Shown here piece by piece: positions 2,423-20,346 of a stretch of DNA of 20,609 bases; within the stretch, counting starts at the first letter, position 1, and every line of letters begins with the position of its first letter. The notes beneath the pieces were generated by a model, which had not been told where the DNA came from, made no database searches, and saw only the letters and a list, made by a program, of their open reading frames with translations. A program made the position numbers and the translations under genes. Location of the stretch: positions 1 through 20,609 of the IMG/VR virus record IMGVR_UViG_3300035670_001452; one strand, given 5' to 3'. The DNA is from a virus.

Positions 2423-2523
2423 TATGCGCCTCTCAGAAGACGGCTACGCTTTTGACGCTTCTTCCTGAACAGGGTGCCAGCACGAGACGATGCACGGCGG
2501 CTTCCTGCGATAACCTTGGCCAT
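2422..2523 (-). CDS. Very small basic protein, unknown
   Basis: A 33-residue ORF starting four bases after the glycosyltransferase stop and ending in a TAATG overlap with the adaptor gene. About a third of its residues are Arg or Lys (RKKRQKRSR near the end). The frame stays open upstream: alternative starts are an ATG at 2559 (45 residues) and a TTG at 2682 (86 residues), both overlapping the glycosyltransferase gene. No start has a strong ribosome site; AGG six bases before the ATG at 2523 is the best. The junction geometry supports expression, but I do not recognise the product. Confidence 0.45.
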   Translation of the reverse strand: MAKVIAGSRRASSRAGTLFRKKRQKRSRLLRGA

Positions 2524-2527
2524 GGAC

Positions 2528-3826: not shown

Positions 3827-4085
3827 CTGCGCTCTCCTGTACGGCGCTATCAGCACTCTTGGTGCTCAGGGAGGCTACGAGTTCGTCAAGGCTGATTTCG
3901 CGGCCTGTAACGGGGTCGAGGCGGTAGCCCTTCATCCATGCACGCTGCGCCCAGTGAGTGAACTTGGGGTCGCGTGGCAACTCGATTACGCCAAAGTGAA
4001 CGTCAACCTCGCCCTCGTAGAAGTAGAACTTCTGGTCAGGGAGTTCGTTCGGGTAGATGTGCTTTAGAAGTACCTTCTCGGCCAT
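3738..4085 (-). CDS. Small structural-operon protein, unknown
   Basis: A 115-residue protein between the capsid and glycosyltransferase genes. The start could be either of two adjacent ATG codons (4088 or 4085) behind TAGGAG. The first 70 residues look folded (aromatic-rich, for example KFYFYEGEVDVHFGVIELP); from about residue 72 it becomes Ser/Glu/Gly-rich and probably disordered. The last 89 bases overlap the beginning of the glycosyltransferase gene in another frame, so this tail is overprinted. I do not recognise a family. A head decoration or small connector role is possible from position only. Confidence 0.65.
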   Translation of the reverse strand: MAEKVLLKHIYPNELPDQKFYFYEGEVDVHFGVIELPRDPKFTHWAQRAWMKGYRLDPVTGREISLDELVASLSTKSADSAVQESADESSDGGGQPAGEDGVRESQLPRTKRIPK

Positions 4086-4107
4086 CATCACGGCTCCTAG
4101 TCTAGCA

Positions 4108-4135
4108 GGAGGGGTCACATTTCTGCAACCCCTCC
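4108..4135 (-). other. Intercistronic hairpin after the capsid gene
   Basis: GGAGGGGT and ACCCCTCC form a perfect 8-bp stem with a 12-base loop, 15 bases after the major capsid stop codon. On the transcribed strand no T run follows, so it is not a classical terminator. It may protect the capsid mRNA 3' end or attenuate readthrough. On the opposite strand it is followed by CGTTTT. Confidence 0.55.
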
Positions 4136-4150
4136 CGTTTTAGTTACGAC

Positions 4151-5032
4151 TTAAAGAGTAAAGTTCTTCAAGTGAACCGGACGCCCTTCGAGCGCGAAGC
4201 CGAAGTAGCCCTTAATCATGAAGTCCACAGAGTCCTTGGTCTTGGCCAGTTCCTCGAATGTGAAGTCCTGATGGACGAGCAACTTAGCGTCTGCACGCTT
4301 GAAGAACAGAATGTCCGTGTTCGTCTCCCAGTGGAGGTCCGTAACAATCGGCAAGCCGTCGTACGTCAGAACACGGAAGCCCGCAGCAACCTCAACACGG
4401 TCATTGAAGTTCTGCTGAGCCTGCAGGAGGGAGTTAATCTTCCTGCGAACCGCACGCGAAGTGAGGATGATATCAACGTCACCACGGGATGCGTCGATAG
4501 CCTCGTCAATCTTTGCGAGGGTCAGGGTTGCAGCGGCAGCGTCAACGACGCCAGTGCCGGAAGCACCCCAGTTGAGAACGTCAGAAGTATCAATCTGGTG
4601 AATGATACCCTGAATGTCGTCGGAGCCGCCAGTTGCCGTAGCAATGTCGGTGGACAACTTCTCAACGAGAGCCTGCGAGTGTGCCTCGACTTCCATCGCC
4701 ATAGCGTTGAACAACGACCCTGCAGCACGCTGCATCGGGCCGGTGACCTCGCCACGGGTGTACAGGTAGGCAACAGACTTCTGCTGCTTGCTGTACGTGG
4801 ACTGCGTAGCGGCAGGCAGAGAGCCGCCGTCCGTAGCCCAAGAAGCGGTCGGGAGGGCATCCCTACGACGGATGAAGTAGGTGTTGGTTGCCCACGGGAC
4901 CTTGTTCACGACGTTATACAGGACCGGCTGCTCTGCAGCGTAGTCGCGGATAGCGCCGTCAACTACCTCAGGGATGAGGTAAGAGCCGGTGCTCGCAAGG
5001 TCAAGAGCCTTGCGAATAGTCATCTGGTCCAT
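4151..5032 (-). CDS. Major capsid protein (HK97 fold)
   Basis: A 293-residue protein that forms the icosahedral shell. It starts MDQMTIRKALDLAS after an AAGGAAG ribosome site. Features of the HK97 fold: an N-terminal arm with RRRDALPTASW near residues 55-65, the E-loop/spine region GSLPAATQSTYSKQQ with the following beta hairpin (SVAYLYTRGEVTGPM), a long spine helix (LFNAMAMEVEAHSQALVEKLSTDIA, about 107-131), then the A domain with DIILTSRAVRRKINSLL and a closing FGFALEGRPVHLKNF. There is no separate scaffold or delta domain; the acidic, coiled-coil tail of the preceding protease probably supplies that function. Confidence 0.85.
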   Translation of the reverse strand: MDQMTIRKALDLASTGSYLIPEVVDGAIRDYAAEQPVLYNVVNKVPWATNTYFIRRRDALPTASWATDGGSLPAATQSTYSKQQKSVAYLYTRGEVTGPMQRAAGSLFNAMAMEVEAHSQALVEKLSTDIATATGGSDDIQGIIHQIDTSDVLNWGASGTGVVDAAAATLTLAKIDEAIDASRGDVDIILTSRAVRRKINSLLQAQQNFNDRVEVAAGFRVLTYDGLPIVTDLHWETNTDILFFKRADAKLLVHQDFTFEELAKTKDSVDFMIKGYFGFALEGRPVHLKNFTL

Positions 5033-6217: not shown

Positions 6218-7636
6218 TTATCCGTCCGTCTGGTCCTCGCCCCCGGAGCCTTCTCCGGTTGCGGGAGCCTGACCGCCCTCGCTACCGTTAGCCGGTGGCG
6301 GGGAGCCTGCTGCGGGCGGCTGATTTTCGGTTCCCTGCCCGCTGATTGGCTGTCCAGATGGGCCGATTAGACGAGCCGCAACGTCATCCAGCCACTCGAC
6401 CGGGATTGCGCCCGCCGCTGTCTGGACAAAGTGAACGTCGCCGCCGTCAATCTTCGGCAGGCCGAGTTCGCCCTTAATCTGGTTGATAGACATAACGCCA
6501 AGCCTCTCGGCCTCACCGTACAACTTCATCATGTCGAGCATGTCACGACGGCTAGAGTCGTTCTGCCTGAACAGAATGTCGTCCCACTTGTAGAGCAAGA
6601 GGATAAGGTCGTTGTTGATTTCTTCCTCGACAACCAACTGCAGCGGAGCGATGTTCTCCTGCCTGAATGTGTTGTCGGCTTCCTTCGAGGTCGAACGGTT
6701 CGAGTCCTCAGTGATGCCCAACTTGGAAGGGTCAATGTCGAGAACGGAGAGGATTTCCTGACGGTTGAACTTGCGCCCCTCGATGAACTGCATTTCCTGC
6801 CGGGTGGACACTGATTTGTTGATATCAATGTCGCCTTCGAGCAGGACAGGCTTGTGTGCATTTTCGGGACCGACGTAGTTCTGCGTCAGCCACTCACGGT
6901 TGCGCTCGACTTCTTCCTTGTTGCTGTTCTTCATCGAGAAGATGATGCCAGTATGGGCAGAGTTCTCGAAGAACCTCTCGTTGAACTTCATCGCAAACAG
7001 GTCGGATGCGACTGTCAGTTCAAGCGAAGATAGGAGGCTAAGACCACGAATATCGTTGTCGGGGTCATCGAACTTGAACTGTACGATATCCTCGGCACTG
7101 TACTCGATTGCGTCTTCGCTCTCAGCGATAGGTCCGTAGCGCCACTTTGACAACTGGCCATCTACGGTCTTCTCGTCCATGTAGTACGGATGCAGCCTGC
7201 GGGCGCTGATTGGCGTTCCCGCTGCGCTCTTGTCGCGGATGATGAGCCAGAAGGCTTCACCGTAAATCAGCAAGTCCTTGTAGGTCACACGGAGCAACTG
7301 GCTGCCGTTTGACACACGGAAGAACTTGCGGAGCGCCTTGACCTTCGTGTCCTCGACTGGCTCGTCTGGCTCAGCCGGTACGAAACGGTACCCGTTAGCA
7401 ACGGCTACCTTGGCAATCTTTTCGATGCCAGCACGCACAGTTGGGTGCTGCTTGTACATTTCGTAGAAGGTCGCATAGCGAGCCTTCCTGCTGCGGTCGA
7501 TGAAGTACGCCTCGCCGTTCTTGGTCGCACCAAGGACAGTGAAGTTCGCCCTCACCGCGCCGGGAGCCGTCTGGCCAACCTGCGCCTTCTGTGCAGCAGC
7601 GTCGGTTGCTGTCTTAGTCCTTCTAGTCGCTGCCAT
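6218..7636 (-). CDS. Portal protein
   Basis: A 472-residue protein that should form the dodecameric ring at the DNA-entry vertex. The ATG at 7636 follows AAGGA at five bases. Typical portal features are YATFYEMYKQHPTVRAGIEKIAKVA (residues about 53-77), YGEAFWLIIRD (wing strand), EYSAEDIVQFKF, GLSLLSSLELTVASDLFAMKFNERFFENSAHTGIIFS (about 199-235, the conserved stem region) and NRQEILSVLDIDPSKLG near 294-310. The last 50 residues are Gly/Pro-rich and low complexity. It overlaps the small gene upstream by 14 bases. Confidence 0.9.
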   Translation of the reverse strand: MAATRRTKTATDAAAQKAQVGQTAPGAVRANFTVLGATKNGEAYFIDRSRKARYATFYEMYKQHPTVRAGIEKIAKVAVANGYRFVPAEPDEPVEDTKVKALRKFFRVSNGSQLLRVTYKDLLIYGEAFWLIIRDKSAAGTPISARRLHPYYMDEKTVDGQLSKWRYGPIAESEDAIEYSAEDIVQFKFDDPDNDIRGLSLLSSLELTVASDLFAMKFNERFFENSAHTGIIFSMKNSNKEEVERNREWLTQNYVGPENAHKPVLLEGDIDINKSVSTRQEMQFIEGRKFNRQEILSVLDIDPSKLGITEDSNRSTSKEADNTFRQENIAPLQLVVEEEINNDLILLLYKWDDILFRQNDSSRRDMLDMMKLYGEAERLGVMSINQIKGELGLPKIDGGDVHFVQTAAGAIPVEWLDDVAARLIGPSGQPISGQGTENQPPAAGSPPPANGSEGGQAPATGEGSGGEDQTDG

Positions 7637-8048: not shown

Positions 8049-9467
8049 TCAGCCGATGATGGACATGCGAGGGGCTACACGCCCTTCGCCGTACATGGCA
8101 AGCATCAGTGACCAGAAATAGTCGTCCGAAGCGTTGCCTTCACCGGCAAACTTGTAGAAGTTAGCCTCCGTCTTGGTTCGACGGATGCCGTGGATTTGAC
8201 GCCTCAGGTCCCCTAGGTTGGGGAAACTGACTCGCCCTGTCTGCATGTCACCCTTGAACTGGGTTGCCCACTTTTCCTTCTTGGCGTTGGTGAAGACCAC
8301 ACCCTCAATGTTGGTATTGAGGATGAGGCGCTTAGCGTCCTCCACAAACGTTGCACCGACACCAGTCTGGTCGATGGAAACCCGGTTTGGCTTGACCGCC
8401 TCGATGAGGCGCTGCATGTATTGAAACTGCTCGTTGTACGGGTCCTGCGACGGCCTTGTGAACAGAACCTTCTTGACGCCATCGTCAAGGTGCTCTACGA
8501 CCGTGAAGACCGTTTGGTCGCGTTCCTTTGCAAGGTCAACGCCGATGCTGAGGTATCCGGCTGCGTCGTAAGACGGGTGCCACTCGCGCCAGATTGCGGC
8601 CTCGTTATCGGTGCAGTTGACAATGAGGTCCCATGTGTAGTACGCTGTAGCCTCGTCAGCGAACGAAGCCTCGTACTCCGTCTGGAACCCGATAAGGTCG
8701 CCACCGAAGTTGTTGTAGATGATGCGCAGTTTGTCCGTGCCGTACTTTAGGACTCGTTCCTCAGAGCCCTCGACCGCAGCGGCCAGAGCCAAGGCTTCCT
8801 CGTAAAGTTCCGGCTTGACCATTGCCGAGCACTCCCACCACGGAACGCCGTGGCGGCTGTACTCAGGGTAAGCCTGCGTGTTCGTCATAATGTCGTAGAA
8901 CAGACCAGACTGGCCGAGCGGGGTGCTGATGATGGTCAGGCGGCTGTTTCCACGAGTGATAGCGGGCATCGCGGCGCGGTACAACTTCTGAGCGTCCCTG
9001 ATGTGGGCAAACTCGTCAAAGTACACGTCCTTGCGTCCACCACGGACAGCAGACGATGCTGGCTGGCTGATGATGGTGCTCGTGTGCGGTGGGCGGTGGA
9101 AACTGATTTCTGTGTCAGCGTCCGTCCACAGGACCGGCTTTAGGGCCGGGTCGTGCGTCTTGAACTCGTCAGGAATGCTGTGGTAGATGTTCCGCGCAAT
9201 CTCAATCTTGTCAGAAGCCTCCTTCTGGTTGATTGAAATGATGTTAGCGCGGTATGCCTGACCTACTGCAGCCTTGTGGACGACCTCGCCCGCGAGGATT
9301 GTCGAGAAGCCAATCTGGCGGCTCTTGTTGATGATGCGGAAGAATGAATGGTCATTCAGGTAGCGAACCTGATACGGTTCGAGCCGGAATGGCGCTCCAT
9401 CCAGTTCCGTCAGTGTTTCCAGCCATACTGCCGGGTACTGAGCCAACAAGGATACCAAGTCGTCCAT
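8049..9467 (-). CDS. terL: Terminase large subunit
   Basis: The packaging motor: an N-terminal ATPase and a C-terminal RNase H-like nuclease. I start at the ATG at 9467 (472 residues); a TTG at 9494 would add nine residues, and neither has a good ribosome site. The phage adenine-binding PYQ (about 31-33), Walker A-like KSRQIGFST (48-56) and Walker B VYFDEFA (148-154) are present, followed by the coupling motif STPLGQSG near 181. Nuclease acidic residues are visible in IGVDLAKERD (about 309-318), VSIDQTGVG and the late SDDYFWSLMLA. The first 116 bases overlap the preceding gene in another frame. Confidence 0.9.
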   Translation of the reverse strand: MDDLVSLLAQYPAVWLETLTELDGAPFRLEPYQVRYLNDHSFFRIINKSRQIGFSTILAGEVVHKAAVGQAYRANIISINQKEASDKIEIARNIYHSIPDEFKTHDPALKPVLWTDADTEISFHRPPHTSTIISQPASSAVRGGRKDVYFDEFAHIRDAQKLYRAAMPAITRGNSRLTIISTPLGQSGLFYDIMTNTQAYPEYSRHGVPWWECSAMVKPELYEEALALAAAVEGSEERVLKYGTDKLRIIYNNFGGDLIGFQTEYEASFADEATAYYTWDLIVNCTDNEAAIWREWHPSYDAAGYLSIGVDLAKERDQTVFTVVEHLDDGVKKVLFTRPSQDPYNEQFQYMQRLIEAVKPNRVSIDQTGVGATFVEDAKRLILNTNIEGVVFTNAKKEKWATQFKGDMQTGRVSFPNLGDLRRQIHGIRRTKTEANFYKFAGEGNASDDYFWSLMLAMYGEGRVAPRMSIIG

Positions 9468-10017
9468 TTGCAAGGAGGTTTCGGTCTGCAACAATCTTCA
9501 CAAGCGGCTGTTCGCCGTCCTTCTCTGTATCCTTGCCCTTTTCGACCTGATGGCGAAGGGTAAGGAGCGAGTTGAGCACCTTTAGGCGGTCAGTTACGTC
9601 CCTGCGGAAGACAACCTTCTTGACAGTGCCAAGAACCTCGCCTGTGTCAGGGTCAATGTCGATTTCGTTCTCGCCCTGCATTTCTGCGATGAGCGCCGGG
9701 TGCAGATTGCGGCCCAAGAGCAGGATGAGAATGTCGAGTTCGCGCTCAGTCGAGACAACCTCGCCACCCTTGACGACCTTCTTTAGGTACTCGTAGTGCT
9801 CAGGCGGGATTACGCCGTCGAACTGGATGAGCAACTGGTCTGCCAACTCTGTCGGCACCAACGACTTGCTCTTGTTCTTCGAGCCGGGTGGGCGACCCCT
9901 TCCGCGCTTCTCTCCGCTCAGGTTGCGCGTGCGAGCCACAGCACCGGTCCTCTTGCTGCCCTCTGTGGAGCGCAAGCCGGTTCTACTGTTGGCGTGGCGG
10001 GGTTCGGTGTCAATCAT
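9352..10017 (-). CDS. Putative terminase small subunit (AT-hook)
   Basis: A 221-residue protein directly before the large terminase, so probably the DNA-recognition subunit. The ATG follows GAGGA at four bases. Residues 36-48 (EKRGRGRPPGSKN) are an AT-hook-like segment suited to minor-groove binding. Residues 55-85 are helical, 86-125 include LDILILLLGRNLHPALIAEM, and 140-165 hold a helix rich in Lys and Arg (VTDRLKVLNSLLTLRHQVEKG), which could mediate oligomerisation. The last 38-47 residues overlap the large terminase start and look less conserved in style. The assignment is from position and DNA-binding character. Confidence 0.6.
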   Translation of the reverse strand: MIDTEPRHANSRTGLRSTEGSKRTGAVARTRNLSGEKRGRGRPPGSKNKSKSLVPTELADQLLIQFDGVIPPEHYEYLKKVVKGGEVVSTERELDILILLLGRNLHPALIAEMQGENEIDIDPDTGEVLGTVKKVVFRRDVTDRLKVLNSLLTLRHQVEKGKDTEKDGEQPLVKIVADRNLLANGRLGILVGSVPGSMAGNTDGTGWSAIPARTVSGSLPE

Positions 10018-10471: not shown

Positions 10472-10545
10472 TGGCTGGCCCGCTAGGACTCGAACCTAGA
10501 CCAGCGGGGTCAAAGCCCGCTGTCCTGCCATTAAACGACAGGCCA
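10472..10545 (-). tRNA. tRNA-Gln(TTG)
   Basis: Full cloverleaf on the minus strand with encoded CCA; anticodon loop CTTTGAC between GCGGG and CCCGC. Last tRNA of the array in transcription order. D-arm TTTAATGGCAGGAC is typical of phage tRNA-Gln. Confidence 0.9.
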
Positions 10546-10549
10546 ATGT

Positions 10550-10624
10550 TGGTGAGCCGAGAAGGACTTGAACCTTCAACCTAGGGGTTAAGAGTCCCTT
10601 ACTCTGCCGTTGAGTTACCGGCCC
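10550..10624 (-). tRNA. tRNA-Lys(CTT)
   Basis: Anticodon loop CTCTTAA, TTCAAGT T-loop, encoded CCA. Pair 31:39 is A-C. A 4-base spacer follows, the longest within the tight part of the array. Confidence 0.88.
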
Positions 10625-10625
10625 T

Positions 10626-10703
10626 TGGAGAGTCAGACGAGACTCGAACTCGCATCATAGGCGGGGTAAAAGCCCGCTGGTCGCCGTTGACCTTCACTGA
10701 CCC
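10626..10703 (-). tRNA. tRNA-Lys(TTT)
   Basis: Anticodon loop CTTTTAC on a perfect GCGGG/CCCGC stem; CCA encoded; one base to the next tRNA. Its D-arm (AGGTCAACGGCGACC) is nearly identical to that of the tRNA at 11646, marking the two as paralogues. Confidence 0.88.
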
Positions 10704-10705
10704 AT

Positions 10706-10780
10706 TGGTCGCCGTGGGTGGACTCGAACCACCGGTACAGTGCTTATGAGACACTTGCCTTACCGCTTGGCTACACTGCG
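10706..10780 (-). tRNA. tRNA-Met(CAT)
   Basis: Anticodon loop CTCATAA, paired acceptor end, encoded CCA. One of two CAT tRNAs. Elongator Met is most likely; an Ile tRNA read through lysidine cannot be excluded. Confidence 0.85.
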
Positions 10781-10782
10781 AT

Positions 10783-10858
10783 TGGCCTCTCCTACAGGAC
10801 TCGAACCTGTGGCCTTGGCGTTAGGACCGCCCTGCACTGTCCACTGTGCTAAGGAGAG
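10783..10858 (-). tRNA. tRNA-Arg(CCT)
   Basis: Anticodon loop GTCCTAA; perfect seven-pair acceptor CTCTCCT/AGGAGAG; CCA encoded. Confidence 0.9.
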
Positions 10859-10859
10859 T

Positions 10860-10935
10860 TGGCACCACCGGAGGGACTCGAACCCTCATATCGACCGCTT
10901 AGAAGGCGGTTGTTCTTCCATTGAACTACGGCGGG
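10860..10935 (-). tRNA. tRNA-Arg(TCT)
   Basis: Anticodon loop CTTCTAA on ACCGC/GCGGT. The terminal acceptor pair appears to be a C-T mismatch. CCA encoded. Confidence 0.87.
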
Positions 10936-10936
10936 A

Positions 10937-11011
10937 TGGAGGTCCCTGTCGGACTCGAACCGACGATGATGTGGGTTGCAACCACACGCCTTGCCTCTTG
11001 GCTAAGGAACC
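10937..11011 (-). tRNA. tRNA-Cys(GCA)
   Basis: Anticodon loop TTGCAAC on TGTGG/CCACA, T-loop TTCGAGT, CCA encoded, T discriminator as expected for Cys. Confidence 0.9.
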
Positions 11012-11013
11012 AT

Positions 11014-11090
11014 TGGTGCTGCCAGTGGGCCTCGAACCCACGACCGGGAGTTTTTCAGGCTCCTACTCTACCGAACTGAGTTACAGCAGC
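11014..11090 (-). tRNA. tRNA-Phe(GAA)
   Basis: Anticodon loop CTGAAAA on GGAGC/GCTCC-type stem; CCA encoded, A discriminator. Followed upstream by a 169-base gap in the array. Confidence 0.9.
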
Positions 11091-11100
11091 ATGTCGCGGT

Positions 11101-11214
11101 TTAGGAGACTTCCCGCAGACGCTCCCGTTTCCAGCGCGCCCCAGCCACCGGGAGTCCCCAGTAGCCGCCTCCACCATCGCCGGGTTCGAGTTTCCCAGCG
11201 TGCAGGCTTATCAT
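11101..11214 (-). CDS. Possible 37-residue ORF inside the tRNA array
   Basis: The 169-base gap between tRNA-Phe and tRNA-Thr(TGT) contains a leftward ORF from an ATG at 11214 to a TAA ten bases before tRNA-Phe. The product has a Gly-rich centre (GDGGGGYWGLP) and a basic end (RWKRERLREVS). No ribosome site precedes the ATG, so it may be non-coding; the rest of the gap shows no tRNA. Confidence 0.28.
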   Translation of the reverse strand: MISLHAGKLEPGDGGGGYWGLPVAGARWKRERLREVS

Positions 11215-11259
11215 TATGCCGTTAGGTTTTACGTCCAGACCCCGGCGAACGGACTCATA

Positions 11260-11333
11260 TGGAGCACCCATTCGGACTCGAACCGAAACCAGTTGCTTAC
11301 AAGACAACTGTCCTACCATTAAACGATAAGTGC
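11260..11333 (-). tRNA. tRNA-Thr(TGT)
   Basis: Anticodon loop CTTGTAA; T-arm TTCGG-loop-CCGAA; CCA encoded. Confidence 0.9.
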
Positions 11334-11334
11334 T

Positions 11335-11411
11335 TGGCGAAGCCAATGGGACTCGAACCCACTATCTCTAGCGTGACAGGCTAGTATCAATACCTCTTAG
11401 ACCTTGGCTCC
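11335..11411 (-). tRNA. tRNA-Asp(GTC)
   Basis: Anticodon loop CTGTCAC on CTAGC/GCTAG; G discriminator; CCA encoded; acceptor pairs fully allowing G-T. Confidence 0.9.
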
Positions 11412-11412
11412 A

Positions 11413-11491
11413 TGGTCCTTGCTGCTGGACTCGAACCAGCGGCCTCCACATTATCAGTGTGATGCACGCATACCTACCGTGCTCAGCAAGG
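11413..11491 (-). tRNA. tRNA-Ile(GAT)
   Basis: Anticodon loop CTGATAA; perfect acceptor CCTTGCT/AGCAAGG on the plus strand; A discriminator; CCA encoded. Confidence 0.9.
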
Positions 11492-11564
11492 ATAGACGCC
11501 CTTGTCGTCTCGAACGACTCCTGCGGGGGTGACCCGCCGTGCTACCGATACACTACTGGGGGCT
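11492..11564 (-). pseudogene. Degenerate tRNA (closest to Val, anticodon CAC)
   Basis: Occupies a normal slot in the array and keeps a recognisable D-arm and TTCGAGA T-loop. The acceptor has several mismatches, no CCA is encoded (TAT instead), the variable region is too short and the anticodon arm reads GTCACCC or a 5-base loop. It looks like a decayed tRNA; if functional it would read GTG. Confidence 0.5.
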
Positions 11565-11565
11565 A

Positions 11566-11644
11566 TGGTACCGTAACGGGGACTCGAACCCCGGACCTCC
11601 TACTTGGCAAGCAGGCGCACTAACCGAGACTGTGCTACTACGGT
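11566..11644 (-). tRNA. tRNA-Gly(GCC)
   Basis: Anticodon loop TTGCCAA; strong T-stem CGGGG/CCCCG; CCA encoded. Confidence 0.9.
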
Positions 11645-11645
11645 A

Positions 11646-11723
11646 TGGACAGCGCGACGGGACTCGAACCCGCATAATCGACTGGTTAAGGGCCAGTTGG
11701 TCGCCATTGACCTACACGCGCCG
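11646..11723 (-). tRNA. tRNA-Lys(CTT)-like with C33
   Basis: Anticodon stem ACTGG/CCAGT frames the loop CCCTTAA, so the nearly universal U33 is C. Anticodon would be CTT. D-arm is almost the same as in tRNA-Lys(TTT) at 10626. CCA encoded. Identity as Lys is by anticodon only. Confidence 0.7.
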
Positions 11724-11725
11724 AT

Positions 11726-11801
11726 TGGCTCCAGAATGAGGACTCGAACCTCACACTCCACGGTTAACAGCCGCGTATGTTACCACTAACACCATTCTGG
11801 A
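11726..11801 (-). tRNA. tRNA-Asn(GTT)
   Basis: Anticodon loop CTGTTAA; perfect acceptor TCCAGAA/TTCTGGA (plus strand); G discriminator; CCA encoded. Confidence 0.9.
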
Positions 11802-11802
11802 A

Positions 11803-11878
11803 TGGTCAGGGTAGCAGGACTCGAACCTGCGACCACTTGTATCCGAAACAAGTGCGCTACCAACTGCGCTACACCCTG
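11803..11878 (-). tRNA. tRNA-Pro(CGG)
   Basis: Anticodon loop TTCGGAT on CTTGT/ACAAG; acceptor pairs along its length; CCA encoded. Confidence 0.9.
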
Positions 11879-11879
11879 T

Positions 11880-11956
11880 TGGTCACACCCGCGAGACTCG
11901 AACTCGCACTACACACGGTCTGAACGTGCTCCCTCTGCCATTTGGGGTACGGTGTG
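11880..11956 (-). tRNA. tRNA-Leu(CAG), short variable loop
   Basis: Anticodon loop TTCAGAC. A73 fits Leu. The variable region is about five bases, unlike the long arm of standard bacterial tRNA-Leu. D-arm contains CCCCAAATGGCAGAG, shared in form with the tRNAs at 11959 and 12624. A G-G apposition ends the acceptor stem. Confidence 0.78.
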
Positions 11957-11958
11957 AT

Positions 11959-12035
11959 TGGTACTGATGGTGAGACTCGAACTCACACTGAATAGGCTCT
12001 CGACCTACCCCCTCTGCCGATTGGGGTACACCAGT
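11959..12035 (-). tRNA. tRNA-Leu(GAG), short variable loop
   Basis: Anticodon loop TCGAGAG, so position 33 is C. A73, short variable loop, D-stem CCCC/GGGG around AATCGGCAGA. CCA encoded. Confidence 0.7.
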
Positions 12036-12036
12036 A

Positions 12037-12113
12037 TGGCACCGCTGATAGGACTCGAACCTACAACCTAAACGTTCGTAGCGTTTTGCACTATTCCATT
12101 GTGCTACAGCGGT
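12037..12113 (-). tRNA. tRNA-Arg(ACG)
   Basis: Anticodon loop CTACGAA on a perfect AAACG/CGTTT stem; perfect acceptor. A34 would need host TadA to make inosine. G discriminator; CCA encoded. Confidence 0.92.
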
Positions 12114-12114
12114 A

Positions 12115-12191
12115 TGGTCGGGTCTAAGGGAGTCGAACCCTCATTGTCCTGCTTGAAAGGCAAGTTTCCTAGGCCATTAGAAGAAGACCCG
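12115..12191 (-). tRNA. tRNA-Glu(TTC)
   Basis: Anticodon loop CTTTCAA; perfect acceptor AGACCCG/CGGGTCT on the plus strand; CCA encoded. Confidence 0.9.
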
Positions 12192-12193
12192 AT

Positions 12194-12267
12194 TGGCAAC
12201 GGCTCTAGGACTCGAACCTAGATTTTGGGGTTCAGAGCCCCTCGTCCTACCATTGAACGAAACCGTT
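12194..12267 (-). tRNA. tRNA-Gln(CTG)
   Basis: Anticodon loop CTCTGAA on a four-pair GGGG/CCCC stem; D-arm resembles that of tRNA-Gln(TTG). CCA encoded. Its 5' end lies six bases after the 3' end of the RNase P RNA. Confidence 0.88.
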
Positions 12268-12273
12268 ATGTGT

Positions 12274-12582
12274 TAGAGATTGACTGTAAGCCCCGTCCTG
12301 TATCCCCGTGGTTCGGACGCCTTGCGGCTCCCACGACAGGTGACTGCCATCCAACTTGGTCGGCTGTTACCAGACGACTCTTTTCGTACACTCGGCACCG
12401 TGGCGTTGCTCCCCAGTAGGTGCCCGACTTTCTCCACGTTCAGATTGCCCGTTTCACTCCGGCGAACCGGCATCGTCACTGTTGCTCTAATGCGCACCTT
12501 GCGGTGGAAGGCCGTTAGCCTCAACGCTGCAACTGAGAGCGGGGACTTTCCTCACCGTAGCGCGGCAGTCCATCAATCTCTA
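12274..12582 (-). ncRNA. rnpB: RNase P RNA (phage-encoded, compact)
   Basis: This RNA would be the catalytic subunit that cuts the 5' leader from pre-tRNAs, working with the host RnpA protein. Helix P1 is a perfect 10-bp pairing of 12573-12582 with 12274-12283. The universal block GAGGAAAGTCC lies about 35 bases from the 5' end. P4 is formed by AAG-T-CCCCG (12540-12548) with CGGGGCTT (12288-12295): it keeps the bulged T and changes the usual CCGGG/CCCGG pairs compensatorily. ACAGGACGGGGCTTACAG matches the conserved 3' block ACAGAACCCGGCTTA. Also present are AGAGCAACAGTGACG (CR-II/III-like), GAGTGAAACGG, GGGGAGCAACGCCA (CR-IV-like), hairpins with GCAA loops (12495-12506, 12319-12328) and a TTCG loop (12459-12470). 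P3 is reduced to about three pairs. CTGGTAACAG after CR-IV may supply the GGU that binds CCA. At about 309 nt it is shorter than most bacterial homologues. Confidence 0.93.
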
Positions 12583-12587
12583 GCGAG

Positions 12588-12616
12588 AGTGTACCACGGA
12601 TGACCGTGGCTGTCAA
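12588..12616 (-). promoter_or_regulatory. rnpB promoter with spacer dyad
   Basis: TTGACA (12611-12616), 17 bases, TACACT (12588-12593), reading leftward. The predicted start is A at 12581, the first base of P1. The spacer is filled exactly by the inverted repeat CCACGG-TCAT-CCGTGG (12594-12609), which may be an operator. The promoter fits in the 41-base gap between tRNA-Leu(CAA) and rnpB. Confidence 0.82.
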
Positions 12617-12623
12617 CTGTATT

Positions 12624-12700
12624 TGGTAGCCCCCACAGGACTCGAACCTGTACTGTACCGGGTTTGAGCCGGTTCTCTCTGCCGATTGGAGTACGGAGCC
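12624..12700 (-). tRNA. tRNA-Leu(CAA), short variable loop
   Basis: Anticodon loop CTCAAAC on perfect ACCGG/CCGGT; A73; five-base variable loop; D-arm CTCCAATCGGCAGAGAG like the other two Leu tRNAs. CCA encoded. Confidence 0.8.
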
Positions 12701-12701
12701 A

Positions 12702-12777
12702 TGGTACCCGAGGTAGGACTCGAACCTACGACGCTCTGCATGTAAAACAGACGTTCTTGCCGCTGAACTACACGGGC
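12702..12777 (-). tRNA. tRNA-Val(TAC)
   Basis: Anticodon loop TTTACAT; T-arm GTAGG/CCTAC; A73; CCA encoded. Confidence 0.9.
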
Positions 12778-12778
12778 A

Positions 12779-12855
12779 TGGTGCACGCTACTGGACTCGA
12801 ACCAGTGACCCCCACCATGTCAAGGTGGTGCGCTAACCAACTGCGCTAAGCCTGC
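12779..12855 (-). tRNA. tRNA-Val(GAC)
   Basis: Anticodon loop TTGACAT on a perfect CCACC/GGTGG stem; one acceptor mismatch; CCA encoded. Confidence 0.9.
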
Positions 12856-12857
12856 AT

Positions 12858-12934
12858 TGGGGCGAACTGTGGGACTCGAACCCAACATTGACGGGTTCAC
12901 AGCCCGTTGACTTAGCCTTTAGTCTAAGCCCGCC
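12858..12934 (-). tRNA. tRNA-His(GTG)
   Basis: Anticodon loop CTGTGAA on ACGGG/CCCGT. The extra 5' G-1 is encoded and faces C73, the His identity pair. CCA encoded. Confidence 0.92.
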
Positions 12935-12935
12935 A

Positions 12936-13009
12936 TGGAGCATCCTACGAGACTCGAACTCGTAACAACAGTTTGGAAGACTGTTGTGTTGCCATTACAC
13001 CAAGAATGC
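12936..13009 (-). tRNA. tRNA-Gly(TCC)
   Basis: Anticodon loop CTTCCAA on ACAGT/ACTGT; CCA encoded. Confidence 0.9.
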
Positions 13010-13010
13010 A

Positions 13011-13087
13011 TGGTAGCACCTGAGGGGCTCGAACCCTCGATTTCCAGTTTGAGAAACTGGTGCCTTGTCCGACTTGGCCAAGGTGCC
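13011..13087 (-). tRNA. tRNA-Glu(CTC)
   Basis: Anticodon loop TTCTCAA on CCAGT/ACTGG; 5' end GGCACCT, D-arm TGGCCAAG; CCA encoded. Confidence 0.88.
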
Positions 13088-13088
13088 A

Positions 13089-13164
13089 TGGAGCCAACGG
13101 AGAGACTCGAACTCTCTACCTCGTTCTTACCAAGAACGCGCACTGCCGGTTGTGCTACGAAGGC
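13089..13164 (-). tRNA. tRNA-Thr(GGT)
   Basis: Anticodon loop TTGGTAA on CGTTC/GAACG; CCA encoded. Acceptor has two adjacent T-T appositions (4:69, 5:68), also seen in the neighbouring tRNA-Thr(CGT). Confidence 0.87.
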
Positions 13165-13165
13165 A

Positions 13166-13240
13166 TGGAGCCAACCCACGGACTCGAACCGTGAACCTAC
13201 GCTTTACGAAAGCGTTGCACTACCATTGTGCTAGGAAGGC
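13166..13240 (-). tRNA. tRNA-Thr(CGT)
   Basis: Anticodon loop TTCGTAA on a perfect ACGCT/AGCGT stem; CCA encoded; shares the tandem acceptor T-T mismatch with tRNA-Thr(GGT), so likely a tandem duplicate. Confidence 0.87.
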
Positions 13241-13242
13241 AT

Positions 13243-13328
13243 TGGTGGGGACGGCAGGGTTTGCACCTGCATAGCCCGAAGGCGACTGTTTTACAGACAG
13301 ATGATTTCGCTCACTTACCATCGGCCCC
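13243..13328 (-). tRNA. tRNA-Tyr(GTA)
   Basis: An 86-nt class II tRNA with a long variable arm (GCC-TTCG-GGC). Anticodon loop CTGTAAA. T-loop is TGCAAAC rather than TTCGAGT, unusual in this array. CCA encoded. Confidence 0.87.
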
Positions 13329-13330
13329 AT

Positions 13331-13404
13331 TGGCAGAAGTCCAGAGACTCGAACTCTGAGTCGCAGTTTTGGAGACTGCTGGTTTACCGTTAACCGAGAC
13401 TTCT
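13331..13404 (-). tRNA. tRNA-Trp(CCA)
   Basis: Anticodon loop CTCCAAA on GCAGT/ACTGC; perfect acceptor; G discriminator; CCA encoded. Confidence 0.92.
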
Positions 13405-13405
13405 A

Positions 13406-13480
13406 TGGTGGAGAAGGAGGGACTCGAACCCTCAACCTTATGCTTGCAAGGCATTTGCGCTCCCATTGCGCCACAACCCC
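13406..13480 (-). tRNA. tRNA-Ala(TGC)
   Basis: Anticodon loop CTTGCAA; only Ala tRNA in the set. Acceptor has two mismatches near its base. First tRNA after the promoter at 13493. Confidence 0.87.
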
Positions 13481-13492
13481 ATGTAGTGATGT

Positions 13493-13522
13493 ATAGTACC
13501 ACAAGACTACCGATACCTGCAA
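13493..13522 (-). promoter_or_regulatory. Promoter of the inner tRNA block
   Basis: TTGCAG (13517-13522), 18 bases, TACTAT (13493-13498), leftward. Predicted start near 13486, six bases before tRNA-Ala. It lies in a 102-base gap (13481-13582) that otherwise holds nothing recognisable. Confidence 0.6.
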
Positions 13523-13582
13523 CCCCCTCGTTTAAGCGCGCTTCGGGTGTCCGGTTGACCTGCACGGTGGCAGACATTTAGT

Positions 13583-13667
13583 TGGCGGATGCTAAGGGAC
13601 TCGAACCCCTACGTCTGTGACGACCTCACCGCTTTCGAGGCGGCGTACCGCTCCTTTGGGAGCATCC
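13583..13667 (-). tRNA. tRNA-Ser(CGA)
   Basis: Class II with long variable arm; anticodon loop CTCGAAA; perfect acceptor; G73; CCA encoded. Confidence 0.92.
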
Positions 13668-13669
13668 AT

Positions 13670-13755
13670 TGGCGGAAACGTAGGGACTCGAACCCTAAAC
13701 GCCTTTCAGCGCGCCTGTTTAGCAAACAGGTTCCTCGACCATTCGGGTCGTTTCC
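13670..13755 (-). tRNA. tRNA-Ser(GCT)
   Basis: Class II; anticodon loop TTGCTAA on CCTGT/ACAGG; perfect acceptor; G73; CCA encoded. Confidence 0.92.
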
Positions 13756-13756
13756 A

Positions 13757-13841
13757 TGGCGGAAGTTGTAGGACTCGAACCCACACTGCCTTTCGGCAAT
13801 CACGCTTTTCAAGAGCGATAAGCACGCCTATGCGAACTTCC
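13757..13841 (-). tRNA. tRNA-Ser(TGA)
   Basis: Class II with variable hairpin TGCC-GAAA-GGCA; anticodon loop CTTGAAA; perfect acceptor; G73; CCA encoded. Confidence 0.92.
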
Positions 13842-13843
13842 AT

Positions 13844-13895
13844 TGGTGTAGCCGAGGGGAGTCGAACCCCACTCCGTCCTTATCACGTTGGCCAC
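13844..13895 (-). pseudogene. Truncated tRNA, 52 nt, lacking the D-arm
   Basis: Keeps six acceptor pairs (GTGGCC with GGCTAC), a T-arm (GGGG-TTCGACT-CCCC), A73 and encoded CCA, with normal 2-nt spacers on both sides. Between acceptor and T-arm only about 19 bases remain, folding at most as CGT-GATAAGG-ACG. It resembles an acceptor-T minihelix. A deletion remnant is most likely. Confidence 0.7.
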
Positions 13896-13897
13896 AT

Positions 13898-13983
13898 TGG
13901 CGGAACCTAGAGGACTCGAACCTCTGTGCCCTTACAGACTCAGCATTTCCAGTGCTGCGCATTTACCATTCTGCCAAGGTTCC
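13898..13983 (-). tRNA. tRNA-Ser(GGA)
   Basis: Class II; anticodon loop CTGGAAA on CAGCA/TGCTG; perfect acceptor; G73; CCA encoded. Confidence 0.92.
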
Positions 13984-13988
13984 ATGAT

Positions 13989-14004
13989 GCGGTTTGGGAA
14001 CCGC
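13989..14004 (-). other. Short hairpin between the 55-residue ORF and tRNA-Ser(GGA)
   Basis: GCGGTT-CCCA-AACCGC, just before the tRNA 5' end. No T run follows. It may mark the mRNA/tRNA boundary for processing. Confidence 0.4.
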
Positions 14005-14047
14005 CAAGACGGAACCCCGTACGCCACCACCGCAAGGTGCAATATGG

Positions 14048-14215
14048 TTACGCCTTTCGGCGTGGTCCCGGTGCGATGCCGTGACGGGCACGATACTTTG
14101 TCGTGCTGTGTGTCACACCGTCCCACCGGTAGTTTCGTCCGACCTTCCGGCCCTTGTTCTTCTGCTTCTTGCCCTTCTTACGGCCAAGCGCAGCAAGTGC
14201 TGTGAGAGCGTCCAA
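14048..14215 (-). CDS. Small very basic protein encoded inside the tRNA array
   Basis: A 55-residue ORF starting with TTG at 14215 behind a perfect AAAGGAGG ribosome site at six bases. The product opens with a short Ala/Leu helix (MDALTALAALG), then RKKGKKQKNKGRK, then an aromatic and basic part (RNYRWDGVTHSTTKYRARHG) and ends PRRKA. High positive charge and the lysine run suggest RNA or DNA binding. It is co-transcribed with tRNAs and lies between tRNA-Met/Pro and tRNA-Ser(GGA). No family recognised. The strong ribosome site and codon structure make it likely real despite its size. Confidence 0.68.
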   Translation of the reverse strand: MDALTALAALGRKKGKKQKNKGRKVGRNYRWDGVTHSTTKYRARHGIAPGPRRKA

Positions 14216-14229
14216 TGACTACCTCCTTT

Positions 14230-14244
14230 CTAGAGTATAGTCAT
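14230..14244 (-). promoter_or_regulatory. Tandem Shine-Dalgarno region with four-codon ORF or -10 box
   Basis: Reading leftward: AAAGGAGG, five bases, ATG ACT ATA CTC TAG, then directly AAAGGAGG and the TTG start of the 55-residue gene. The mini-ORF (MTIL) could couple ribosomes onto the gene. The same bases hold TATACT (14234-14239), a good -10 without a clear -35, so a promoter is the alternative reading. Confidence 0.5.
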
Positions 14245-14330
14245 TCGCGCCTCCTTTCTTGAAGTGGAGGGAGGGGGGCTGCAACCCGAGCGGGTGGGGA
14301 GCCGACCCCATCCTCCCAACGGAACTTATT

Positions 14331-14406
14331 TGGTTGCAGCCTGCAGAGTCGAACTGCCGAAGCCAAGGCTTATGAGGCCCAGCGGGAACCGTCCATAAAG
14401 ACTGCT
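14331..14406 (-). tRNA. tRNA-Met(CAT), possibly initiator
   Basis: Anticodon loop CTCATAA; CCA encoded. The 1:72 position is an A-A mismatch and three G-C pairs sit at 29-31:39-41; an unpaired 1:72 end is a mark of initiator tRNAs. T-loop is TTCGACT. Some other stems are imperfect. Confidence 0.75.
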
Positions 14407-14407
14407 A

Positions 14408-14481
14408 TGGTCTGAGATAGAGGACTCGAACCTCTGTCACGTGGTCCCAAACCACGAGCGCAACCTCTACGCCAATCTCAG
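14408..14481 (-). tRNA. tRNA-Pro(TGG)
   Basis: Anticodon loop TTTGGGA on a perfect CGTGG/CCACG stem; perfect acceptor; CCA encoded. First tRNA of the array in transcription order. Confidence 0.92.
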
Positions 14482-17034: not shown

Positions 17035-19491
17035 CTAGCAGACTGAGTGGCCGCAGGTGAGGCACTTGGCGCACCCTTCCTCGCGGATGAATGACGCCGT
17101 GCCGCACTCAGGGCAAAGGTCAGCCTTCGTCCTGATGGTGACTGTGGGGCTTGTCGGGGCCGGGGTGAACTTCACGGAGTCAGCCTCAGCCTCGTACGTG
17201 CCAGACTCGTTCTGCATGACGATTGTCACCTTCTTGCTCTCACGGGGCTTGTTGGCCGCTGTGAGGGCTTCACCAATAGCGTGCGGGATGGGCTTGTTGA
17301 ACTGTGCGCTTCCGCCGACTCCCTCCAACTGGTTCGCCACGCCGCCAAGCGTTGCTCCCTTGCGGAGGGCAAGGGAAGCGAGCCTTCCCATGGCTTCTGC
17401 CATAGATGCCACGTCGCTGCCAGCCTTGCCGACGTTGAAGAACACTTCGACTGCGCGGCCAGTGTCAGGGTCGCGGTTGACCGTGATGTAGGCCGTGCCT
17501 GCGCGGGTGCCGGTCTTGACGGTGGTGCCGTCGAGCAGTTCCGGCCTCTGGTATTCCTGAGCGTACTCGAACAGGGAGTAGTTGGCGTCCAGCATTTCGC
17601 GCAGGTCGTCAATGACGTTCAGCGCATCCTCGTAGAGGAACTGGTACGACTCCCCCGTCTCCGGGTCAATCTCGTCCTTTGGCGTCTCCTTGTAGAGAAC
17701 CTGTGCGCGGCCAGAGCCGTCACGGAAGTAGGCCAGACCCTTCAAGCCGGAGTCGTATGCCAGCGTGTAGGCACGCTCAACATCGTCAACCGTGTGGCTG
17801 TTTGGGCCGTTGATGGTCTTGGACACCGACGAGTCGATGTACTTCTGTGCTGCGGCCTGCATTGCGATGTGGCCTTCGACGCTTACGTCATTGGAGGTCA
17901 CGAGGTACTTCGGCTTTAGCACGCCTTCCGGCACGTACTTCTCGATGGCCGGGGCCACGACGATGTGCTCGCCGGTACGGTCCTTGCGGGTGTACTTGAA
18001 GTCGAAGTACGGCTCGATGCCGCTGTTCACGCCAGCGAGGATGCTGGTGGTCCCGGTCGGTGCCTGCGTGAGCAGGAACAGGTTGCGCATGCCGTAGTTC
18101 TTGACCTGAATGCCGAGAGGCGTCCCGGCAATGCCCTTCAAGTACGGCCTGCTCGCCATGTCCTTCGTCCACGCCGGGGCAGGACCCTTGACCTTGGCAA
18201 GGTTGTTTGAGGCACGGACTGCGTGCGTCTTCATCAACTTGAAGACCTTTTCGGTGAAGTCAACGGCATCCGGCTCGCCATAGGTCAGGCCAAGCGCGAT
18301 GAGCGCATCAGCCAGTCCCATGACGCCGAGGCCGATGCGGCGCAGGTTCTTCTGCGCAGCCTCGTTCTCAGGGATGAAGTAGAAGTTCTTGTCGATGACG
18401 TTATCGAGGAAGCGGACTGCGACCTCAACGTCATTGCCGAAGGAGTCCCAGTCGAACACGTAGGACGTGTGGTACTTGGTCTTGTTGCCGACCTTGATGT
18501 AGGCATCGAGGTTCATGGCACCAAGGTTGCAGACGGAGTATGGGCCAAGGCCCTGCTCGCCGCACGGGTTGACGCTGATAATGTCCTCGACACCGGCTCC
18601 GGTGCTCAGCGCATTGTAACGTCCCAAGAACACCACTCCGGGTTCACCGGACCCCCAAGCAGCATCAGCAAGGCTGCGCCAAATGTCTCTGGCTCGCACT
18701 GTGCGGTAAGTGACAACCTCGCCTCCCTCAGCCTCCCACTTGGCAAGATTTCCTGTCCAGTGAGTGTTATATCGAGGGTCACTCGTGTTCGGGAAACGAA
18801 GTCTCCACTCACCGTCACTTCGGACAGCCTCCATGAACTCGTCGCTGACGGCAACAGAGACGTTAGCGTTTGTAATGAGCGAGAAGTCTCGCTTGGCATT
18901 GATGAAGTCCTCCACGTCAGGGTGCCAGTCATCGAGCATGAACATCGCTGCACCACGGCGAGAACCGCCCTGCTCAACGACACCGACCGCACGGGAGGCC
19001 ACGTCCATCCAAGAGACAGGGCCGGAGGTCGTGCCGTTGACACGCTTCAAGTGTGCGCCCTTCGGGCGAAGAACGGACCAGTTGATGCCGACCCCGCCGC
19101 CACGGCTCATGATATCGACCATCAGGCCAATCGTGTCGAAGATGGCCTCACGGCTGTCATTGCCGGGGTCGCTGTACATGCGGGGCGGAAGAACCTCAGC
19201 CTGAACCGGGTACTCCCTAGAAGCCCTGCGGACCTTCGTCTCCACGGGGATGACGTAGCAGTTGTAGAAGGTGACCTCGCTCTCGGTGCCAGCCCCGCTC
19301 AGGATGCGGCCACCGGGGACGAACTTCCAGTCCAGAAGGAGACGGTTGAACTCGTCCCGCTCCTGCTCATTGTCGCCAATGGCCAGAGCGACACGGCTCC
19401 ACATTTCGTAGGGCTGCGACTCGATGGGCTGGCCAGTCTCGTCCTTGCGTGCGTAGCGGTCTAGGAAGACCTTTGTTCGTTGTTCGTTCAT
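17035..19491 (-). CDS. nrdJ: Class II (adenosylcobalamin-dependent) ribonucleotide reductase
   Basis: An 818-residue enzyme converting ribonucleotides to deoxyribonucleotides. The active-site NPCGEQ is at 308-313 (Asn308, Cys310, Glu312). The redox Cys pair is Cys78 (TFYNCYVIP) and Cys321 (SVCNLGAMNLD). PTGTTSILAGVNSGIEPYF is the conserved phosphate-binding stretch. The C-terminus has a CPECG...CAKCLTCGHSVC zinc ribbon with the reducing Cys pair, typical of NrdJ. No NrdB-like subunit or NrdD glycyl-radical site is present, and B12 would have to come from the host. The start overlaps the upstream stop (ATGA). Confidence 0.93.
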   Translation of the reverse strand: MNEQRTKVFLDRYARKDETGQPIESQPYEMWSRVALAIGDNEQERDEFNRLLLDWKFVPGGRILSGAGTESEVTFYNCYVIPVETKVRRASREYPVQAEVLPPRMYSDPGNDSREAIFDTIGLMVDIMSRGGGVGINWSVLRPKGAHLKRVNGTTSGPVSWMDVASRAVGVVEQGGSRRGAAMFMLDDWHPDVEDFINAKRDFSLITNANVSVAVSDEFMEAVRSDGEWRLRFPNTSDPRYNTHWTGNLAKWEAEGGEVVTYRTVRARDIWRSLADAAWGSGEPGVVFLGRYNALSTGAGVEDIISVNPCGEQGLGPYSVCNLGAMNLDAYIKVGNKTKYHTSYVFDWDSFGNDVEVAVRFLDNVIDKNFYFIPENEAAQKNLRRIGLGVMGLADALIALGLTYGEPDAVDFTEKVFKLMKTHAVRASNNLAKVKGPAPAWTKDMASRPYLKGIAGTPLGIQVKNYGMRNLFLLTQAPTGTTSILAGVNSGIEPYFDFKYTRKDRTGEHIVVAPAIEKYVPEGVLKPKYLVTSNDVSVEGHIAMQAAAQKYIDSSVSKTINGPNSHTVDDVERAYTLAYDSGLKGLAYFRDGSGRAQVLYKETPKDEIDPETGESYQFLYEDALNVIDDLREMLDANYSLFEYAQEYQRPELLDGTTVKTGTRAGTAYITVNRDPDTGRAVEVFFNVGKAGSDVASMAEAMGRLASLALRKGATLGGVANQLEGVGGSAQFNKPIPHAIGEALTAANKPRESKKVTIVMQNESGTYEAEADSVKFTPAPTSPTVTIRTKADLCPECGTASFIREEGCAKCLTCGHSVC

Positions 19492-19730
19492 TCGGCAAGC
19501 ACCTTCTTGATTTCTCGGAGCATGTACAGTACCTCGCTCCCGCGAATGCGGTCACGGTACCACTCATCCTCGTGGGTTGTGAAAACTGGTTCGTAGAACT
19601 GGTATCCGTTCTCTTGGACCGGTTCACCGAACTCGACCGTAATCTTACGGCCATCTGCCGTGCGTAGGCCCCAAAGGCTCCCGTCTAGGAACTCCCGGCT
19701 CATCAGCACGAGCATCGTATGCTCATCCAT
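19488..19730 (-). CDS. Small acidic protein, unknown
   Basis: An 80-residue protein immediately before nrdJ (ATGA overlap), with its own ATG overlapping the HicB-like gene's stop. GGAGG lies about twelve bases upstream. Beta-rich middle (SLWGLRTADGRKITVEFGEPV), then YRDRIRGSEVLYMLREIKKVLAE, a C-terminal helix. No family recognised. Confidence 0.6.
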   Translation of the reverse strand: MDEHTMLVLMSREFLDGSLWGLRTADGRKITVEFGEPVQENGYQFYEPVFTTHEDEWYRDRIRGSEVLYMLREIKKVLAE

Positions 19731-19947
19731 CGCTTGCTCTTTCCTCCACAATGTCGTAGCCGGAGAATGGATACGTCCTGCGAACAGCAGCACGCATGTT
19801 GGCCAGTGCCTCTCGCTTGGTGGCACCAATCCCCTTGATGCCCCTCAACTTGGGGTCGTCACAGGAGACGGCAAAGTACGGCTCGACCGAGTACCGGATG
19901 GTAACGGTCTGCCGTTCAGCGGTGGGAACTTGTTTGGCCCTAGCCAC
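19723..19947 (-). CDS. HicB-like small protein
   Basis: A 74-residue protein. I choose GTG at 19947 because GAGG lies six bases upstream. Residues about 18-60 (TIRYSVEPYFAVSCDDPKLRG...GATKREALANMRAAV) follow the HicB pattern: a strand with an aromatic residue, a Pro-Leu-x-Gly-like turn, then (T)xxEAxxN leading into the helix. HicB proteins are antitoxins that bind HicA. No HicA-like partner is visible next to it and no DNA-binding domain follows, so it may be an orphan used as an anti-toxin defence or a different small fold. First gene of the metabolic operon. Confidence 0.55.
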   Translation of the reverse strand: MARAKQVPTAERQTVTIRYSVEPYFAVSCDDPKLRGIKGIGATKREALANMRAAVRRTYPFSGYDIVEERASDG

Positions 19948-19985
19948 GCTCAACCTCGTCTAGCGATGTTCATTCATCTTGGAGC

Positions 19986-20015
19986 ATTATGCCACACCCG
20001 AGTCTCCGGTTGCAA
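19986..20015 (-). promoter_or_regulatory. Promoter of the nrdJ-thyX operon
   Basis: TTGCAA (20010-20015), 18 bases, CATAAT (19986-19991), leftward. Predicted start near 19979, about 32 bases before the GTG of the HicB-like gene. Same -35 and spacing as the tRNA promoters. Confidence 0.62.
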
Positions 20016-20123
20016 CCGCCAGAGGTCACGTTTTTCCCTCGCGGCCCGAACCATCATCCTCTTATGACATAGAGAGTGTTCTTAGACCTCCTTACCATAG
20101 AGAGAGGATACTACTCCTTCTCT

Positions 20124-20139
20124 CTCTATATATATAGAG
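20124..20139. repeat. 16-bp perfect palindrome
   Basis: CTCTATATATATAGAG reads the same on both strands and gives TATATA on either. It lies in a run of CT- and GA-rich direct repeats (catagagag near 20071 and 20094; gaggatactac and gaggatactcc). Confidence 0.6.
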
Positions 20140-20252
20140 GATGATAACAAGGAGACTAGAGGATGGCATCCCTGATAGTCATGCTATCTACTGTGGCCAT
20201 GGATGGCCATGGCTAGTGGAGGATACTCCCTTCTGGCTCTCTCCGGCAACTC

Positions 20253-20346
20253 TGCATGATTATGCACTCCATGCAGTGTTTCATGCATGGTTATGCAGCC
20301 TGAGCGAGGTACCCATGCATAATGATGCAAAATGCATGAATATGCA
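20253..20346. repeat. Four TGCAT-N4-ATGCA inverted repeats
   Basis: Copies at 20253-20266, 20284-20297, 20316-20329 and 20333-20346, with centres 31, 32 and 17 bp apart. The 10 arm bases are identical in all four; the N4 centres differ. Half-sites (ATGCA, TGCAT) occur between copies. The pattern fits a dimeric DNA-binding protein with three-turn spacing, as in an operator array or origin. Confidence 0.8.

Follow-up and report, generated by a model that had tools for sequence, protein, structure and literature searches.

Four ARG-box-like palindromes ahead of a phage gene block suggest a host-ArgR operator, with similar pairs preceding terminase genes in other virus contigs

An array of four palindromic TGCAT-N4-ATGCA sites stands ahead of a long gene block in the 20,609 bp of viral DNA analysed here (the window). 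We read this array as probably being a host-ArgR operator of four ARG boxes, placed in the control region that heads a block of ribonucleotide reductase (RNR), ThyX, tRNA, terminase and capsid genes. Because the window is a complete IMG/VR virus record, the array lies 263 bp from the contig end. Similar sites before the packaging gene in several unrelated phages suggest that these viruses read or soak up a nutrient regulator of their hosts. The operator type is well known, while its location in a phage is apparently unreported: on ARG boxes in phage genomes, the literature searched yielded only untested lambdoid predictions and a disproved site in P1.

A scan of the whole 20,609-bp record returned four exact matches to TGCATNNNNATGCA, given without strand, at 20253–20266 (site 1, TGCATGATTATGCA), 20284–20297 (site 2, TGCATGGTTATGCA), 20316–20329 (site 3, TGCATAATGATGCA) and 20333–20346 (site 4, TGCATGAATATGCA), with start-to-start spacings of 31, 32 and 17 bp, the last separating sites 3 and 4. 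An additional ATGCA half-site, likewise unstranded, is located between sites 1 and 2 (20271–20275). Dinucleotide-preserving shuffles of the record contained 0.01 matches on average and never reached four. The array and the spacing described in the initial annotation are confirmed. No further exact copy was present outside the array in the entire record, and the random spread that the annotation had named as grounds for refutation was thus not seen. When up to two mismatches were permitted, 12 sites were found compared to 5.9 expected, the extra ones being scattered and near chance level. The centres of the four sites, which had been called variable, do differ, but they are not random once oriented (GATT, GGTT, CATT with the third site reversed, and GAAT).

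In order to identify the motif, we scored the window with an ArgR matrix. It was trained on 37 ARG boxes that lie in S. coelicolor DNA bound by ArgR (PMC5839063; boxes in ArgR-shifted fragments are tabulated in Table 1 there) and made symmetric, and its consensus is GTCTGCATGATCATGCAGAC. The top four scores in the 20.6 kb belonged to the four sites (sites 1 and 2, 17.5 each; site 4, 14.0; site 3, 13.7), with sites 1 and 2 on a par with the best natural S. coelicolor box (17.7). In the nearest syntenic relative found (L029; IMGVR_UViG_3300049846_000503, 51,193 bp), the two exact copies of the motif were the best two matrix matches in 51 kb. Training without the boxes of arginine genes left two of the window sites in first and second place (16.9) and the two L029 sites on top, while the remaining two window sites dropped to fourth and sixth.

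The ARG-box reading was formed after the motif had been seen. To test it independently, we looked for close motif pairs in 84,980 species genomes and obtained at least 120 stretches. Among the matches listed, seven of nine actinobacterial close-pair loci were located directly at argC, with a spacing of 20–21 bp, indicating that the motif is an ARG box in actinobacteria. Four such actinobacterial genomes held three to four perfect copies each. Compared with the 20–21 bp of the argC operators, the 31/32/17 spacing of the window counts against an ARG-box reading; however, tandem spacing of 20–21 bp is usual at arg operons rather than obligatory, and L029 has 21 bp. In S. coelicolor, single ARG boxes and, at rstP, boxes 10 nt apart have been reported.

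Which protein would bind the array? ArgR is a hexamer and arginine its co-repressor. The initial annotation had expected a dimeric binding protein. Its idea of a protein-binding array is supported, but with ARG boxes as the sites one would expect the hexameric ArgR of the host to bind them, and not a dimeric repressor of the phage. An Arg_repressor domain was found in none of 21 phage records, while control bacterial genomes were positive in the same search. The likely binder is therefore the host's own ArgR, which appears to be the most economical candidate. Relatives of the terminase (for other phages with arrays), the portal protein and DUF7178 are mostly actinophage proteins, and these protein relationships point indirectly to an actinobacterial host. 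tRNA identity to 296 Actinomycetota reached 84% at most, which does not settle the host, and a terminase search of 396 Actinomycetota genomes gave no match. Absence of ArgR in S. coelicolor leads to a transient rise of the RNR genes, and nrdA is preceded by an ARG box at a distance of 158 bp (PMC5839063), which by analogy would fit an array ahead of an RNR-led block.

The main genes of the window are all encoded on the minus strand and point away from the array, which heads a long same-strand gene run. This run opens with a small conserved gene (19723–19953, minus strand, like all genes of the block), which has a homologue at the same place in L029 and for which a search for relatives gave none. 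Downstream follow RNR with a barrel and a TSCPD domain (17035–19491), the thymidylate synthase ThyX (PF02511; 15443–16084), 34 tRNA genes (10472–14481), the terminase large subunit (8049–9494; about 10.8 kb from the array), the portal protein (6218–7636) and the major capsid protein (4151–5032). The 34 tRNA genes are packed into 4 kb of the 20.6-kb fragment and cover 18 amino acids, with no Tyr or Asp. A group 1 glycosyltransferase gene, also matched weakly by GT4-conflict, sits among the head genes at 2528–3856.

Around the array itself there are only short overlapping ORFs, in agreement with the gene-free region noted in the initial annotation. A promoter predicted for the RNR block at 19986–20015 (minus strand; TTGCAA-N18-CATAAT) is the only conserved promoter-like site and lies about 240–330 bp downstream of the array, a distance that weakens the operator reading and lends no support to simple promoter occlusion. 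Its layout recurs in L029 (TTGCAG-N18-TATCAT) and in a further relative, L025 (TTGCGG-N18-TATGAT), so that the three share the element TTGCNN-N18-YATNAT followed by CTAGAYGAGG. Between array and promoter, an imperfect 24-nt inverted repeat (20053–20145, minus strand) has an RNA fold of −39.9 kcal/mol, somewhat better than shuffles (z −2.3), and includes an ATATATA stretch. A blastn search of the region against phages gave no match.

L029, with 68% identity to the window in RNR and 85% in terminase, is noncoding over about 1.8 kb at the homologous place, a gap that separates divergent gene blocks. Inside this gap it keeps two exact copies of the motif with a spacing of 21 bp, one at 3141 and one at 3162, the former carrying the same 14-mer as site 2 of the window, together with two degenerate sites, and the distance of the pair to the first gene is homologous to that in the window. 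Loss of the motif in relatives, the other outcome considered refuting, was thus not observed in L029. The operator reading of the initial annotation is sustained by the protein-binding type of the array, by its position ahead of a gene block and by the two sites that a relative has kept. More distant RNR relatives were without ARG boxes, which counts against the ARG-box reading. The homologous control regions also contain a LexA-like palindrome, GAACN4GTTC, with 12 copies (mostly TAGAACATATGTTCTA) in L025 at 2511–4114 and five copies in L029 at 2441–2835, alongside the ARG boxes there; the window contig stops short of the part homologous to this region.

The same comparison bears on the replication-origin iterons that had been offered as a second reading of the array. 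A noncoding region that combines repeats with AT-rich stretches is what such iterons would look like, but the homologous region of L029 shows no GC-skew turn (minimum at 47,554, maximum at 13,969), and the motif, already known as an operator of transcription, recurs in pairs before argC and terminase genes. We therefore regard the iteron reading as extremely improbable.

The motif is placed similarly in other viruses. Two viral scans yielded 38 contigs with close motif pairs, and in 17 of these (L008, L009, L010, L014, L021; L013, L198, L200, L202; L015; L017; L020; L201; L203, L213; L209; L212) a pair was located within 1.6 kb upstream of a correctly oriented gene for the terminase large subunit, compared to 3 of 71 contigs for two palindromes of matched composition that served as controls (Fisher P ~5e-7 on contigs, before removing relatives). 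Counting each lineage once, with lineages grouped by eye at a stage when the fusion contigs had not yet been identified as terminases, left 9 of 30 versus 3 of 63 (P ~0.0015). Terminases were surveyed with phrog_2 for motif contigs and with phrog_2, phrog_9 and phrog_38 for controls; the shared protein search was seeded mostly from motif contigs, a possible bias that extra control searches were meant to offset. phrog_9 confirmed the terminase in L017, L203 and L213, and L204 and L205, which would count only if their contigs were circular, were left out. At least three PHROG families are represented among the terminases of the 17 contigs, indicating that the terminase-adjacent pairs are not one inherited region. 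The AT-rich pair of L202, TGCATATTTATGCA-N6-TGCATATTTATGCA, is almost identical to the operator at argC in L120, TGCATAAATATGCA-N6-TGCATATTTATGCA.

By count alone, virus contigs were not enriched in motif pairs (40 hits in the two scans versus 45 and 26 for the controls); only the position next to the terminase sets the motif pairs apart from the controls. ARG pairs were absent from five cultured actinophages, comprising Arthrobacter, Microbacterium, Propionibacterium and Corynebacterium phages, and the feature is thus not general among actinophages. Pairs of the control palindrome ACGTA-N4-TACGT, present in 45 virus contigs (L218–L262), outnumber those of the motif under study and may be operators of something else. 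In L203 (5174–6868) and L213 (2630–4324), an HNH endonuclease domain is apparently fused to the terminase large subunit, and four ARG-box-like sites closely precede the fusion.

These placements and the conservation in L029 also allow the remaining alternatives to be weighed. A regulator encoded by the phage, either a repressor or a late activator, could bind the array, the likeness to ARG boxes being coincidental. Phage control regions usually carry the sites of their own repressor, L025 has its 12 GAACN4GTTC copies at the homologous place as if relatives exchanged operators, and the genome is known only in part. Against this, the same 14-bp specificity occurs in phages of three terminase families and in bacterial argC operators, which would be unexpected between unrelated phage regulators, and the sites match the ArgR matrix, flanking positions included. 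We regard a phage-encoded binder as unlikely, if still deserving of attention.

A packaging (cos/pac) region, in which ArgR or terminase acts as an architectural factor, would account for pairs that in several unrelated phages are flanked by an HNH gene on one side and the terminase genes on the other, a frequent cos location. The window array, in contrast, heads a gene block about 10.8 kb away from its terminase, and unrelated terminases would not share recognition sites, which makes a packaging role very unlikely. A higher, though still small, chance is given to the array as a sponge, which would titrate host ArgR during infection and lift the repression of arginine, pyrimidine and dNTP genes while leaving the adjacent phage promoter uncontrolled. 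Four near-consensus sites per phage genome, set against three to four perfect copies in the entirety of a small actinobacterial genome, and the distance of the array from the promoter-like site are in line with such titration. It leaves unexplained, however, why pairs are placed specifically before terminase blocks (17/38 versus 3/71).

For the reading that we prefer, a host-ArgR operator, binding would regulate transcription of the block and most likely restrain it, although repression, activation and titration are indistinguishable by sequence. Arginine-loaded hexamers of host ArgR would bind adjacent boxes, bending or looping the DNA, and expression of the block, perhaps also of a divergent one, would in this way be coupled to the cell's arginine and nitrogen state. 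A box spacing of three helical turns, together with the known biology of ArgR, suggests that bending or looping is allowed. More tentatively, and with a somewhat less than even chance of being right, we propose that several unrelated actinobacterial phage lineages independently recruited host ArgR before their packaging and late genes, tying virion production to arginine status. If true, a nutrient-sensing host repressor would be a recurrent input to late gene control in actinobacterial phages, and host arginine metabolism and phage production would be connected by a directly testable link.

Several known systems resemble parts of this arrangement. NrdR boxes before RNR operons are, like the array, paired palindromes about three turns apart, but their core differs from TGCATN4ATGCA. 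In uncultured Acidimicrobiales and other Actinomycetota (L071, L105, L120, L131, L153, L181), the argC operators contain exact paired TGCATN4ATGCA cores; unlike in the window, these are spaced 20–21 bp apart and lie 12–48 bp from the argC reading frame, a layout matched better by the phage contigs L029 (21 bp) and L202 (20 bp). Use of host ArgR by a mobile element has a parallel in ColE1 cer and in the ArgR site proposed at P1 loxP (PMC2409434). At cer, in contrast to the window array, ArgR is accessory to XerCD recombination, whereas the window yielded no recombination site, and the proposed binding at P1 loxP was disproved (PMC2409434). For the p1/pI promoters of lambdoid phages (PMC7093339), host ArgR has likewise been proposed to act at a phage promoter, whereas the sites there are single, software-predicted boxes of the E. 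coli type. The closest system is that of the S. coelicolor ARG boxes at argH, argG and argC (PMC5839063), which have the same 14-bp core TGCATN4ATGCA with the preferred flanks and centre and, as in the window, occur several together, including one box reported upstream of nrdA. The window array differs from these in its phage genome, its four perfect cores, its 31/32/17 spacing instead of contiguous 20-bp boxes, and its position far from the promoter-like site.
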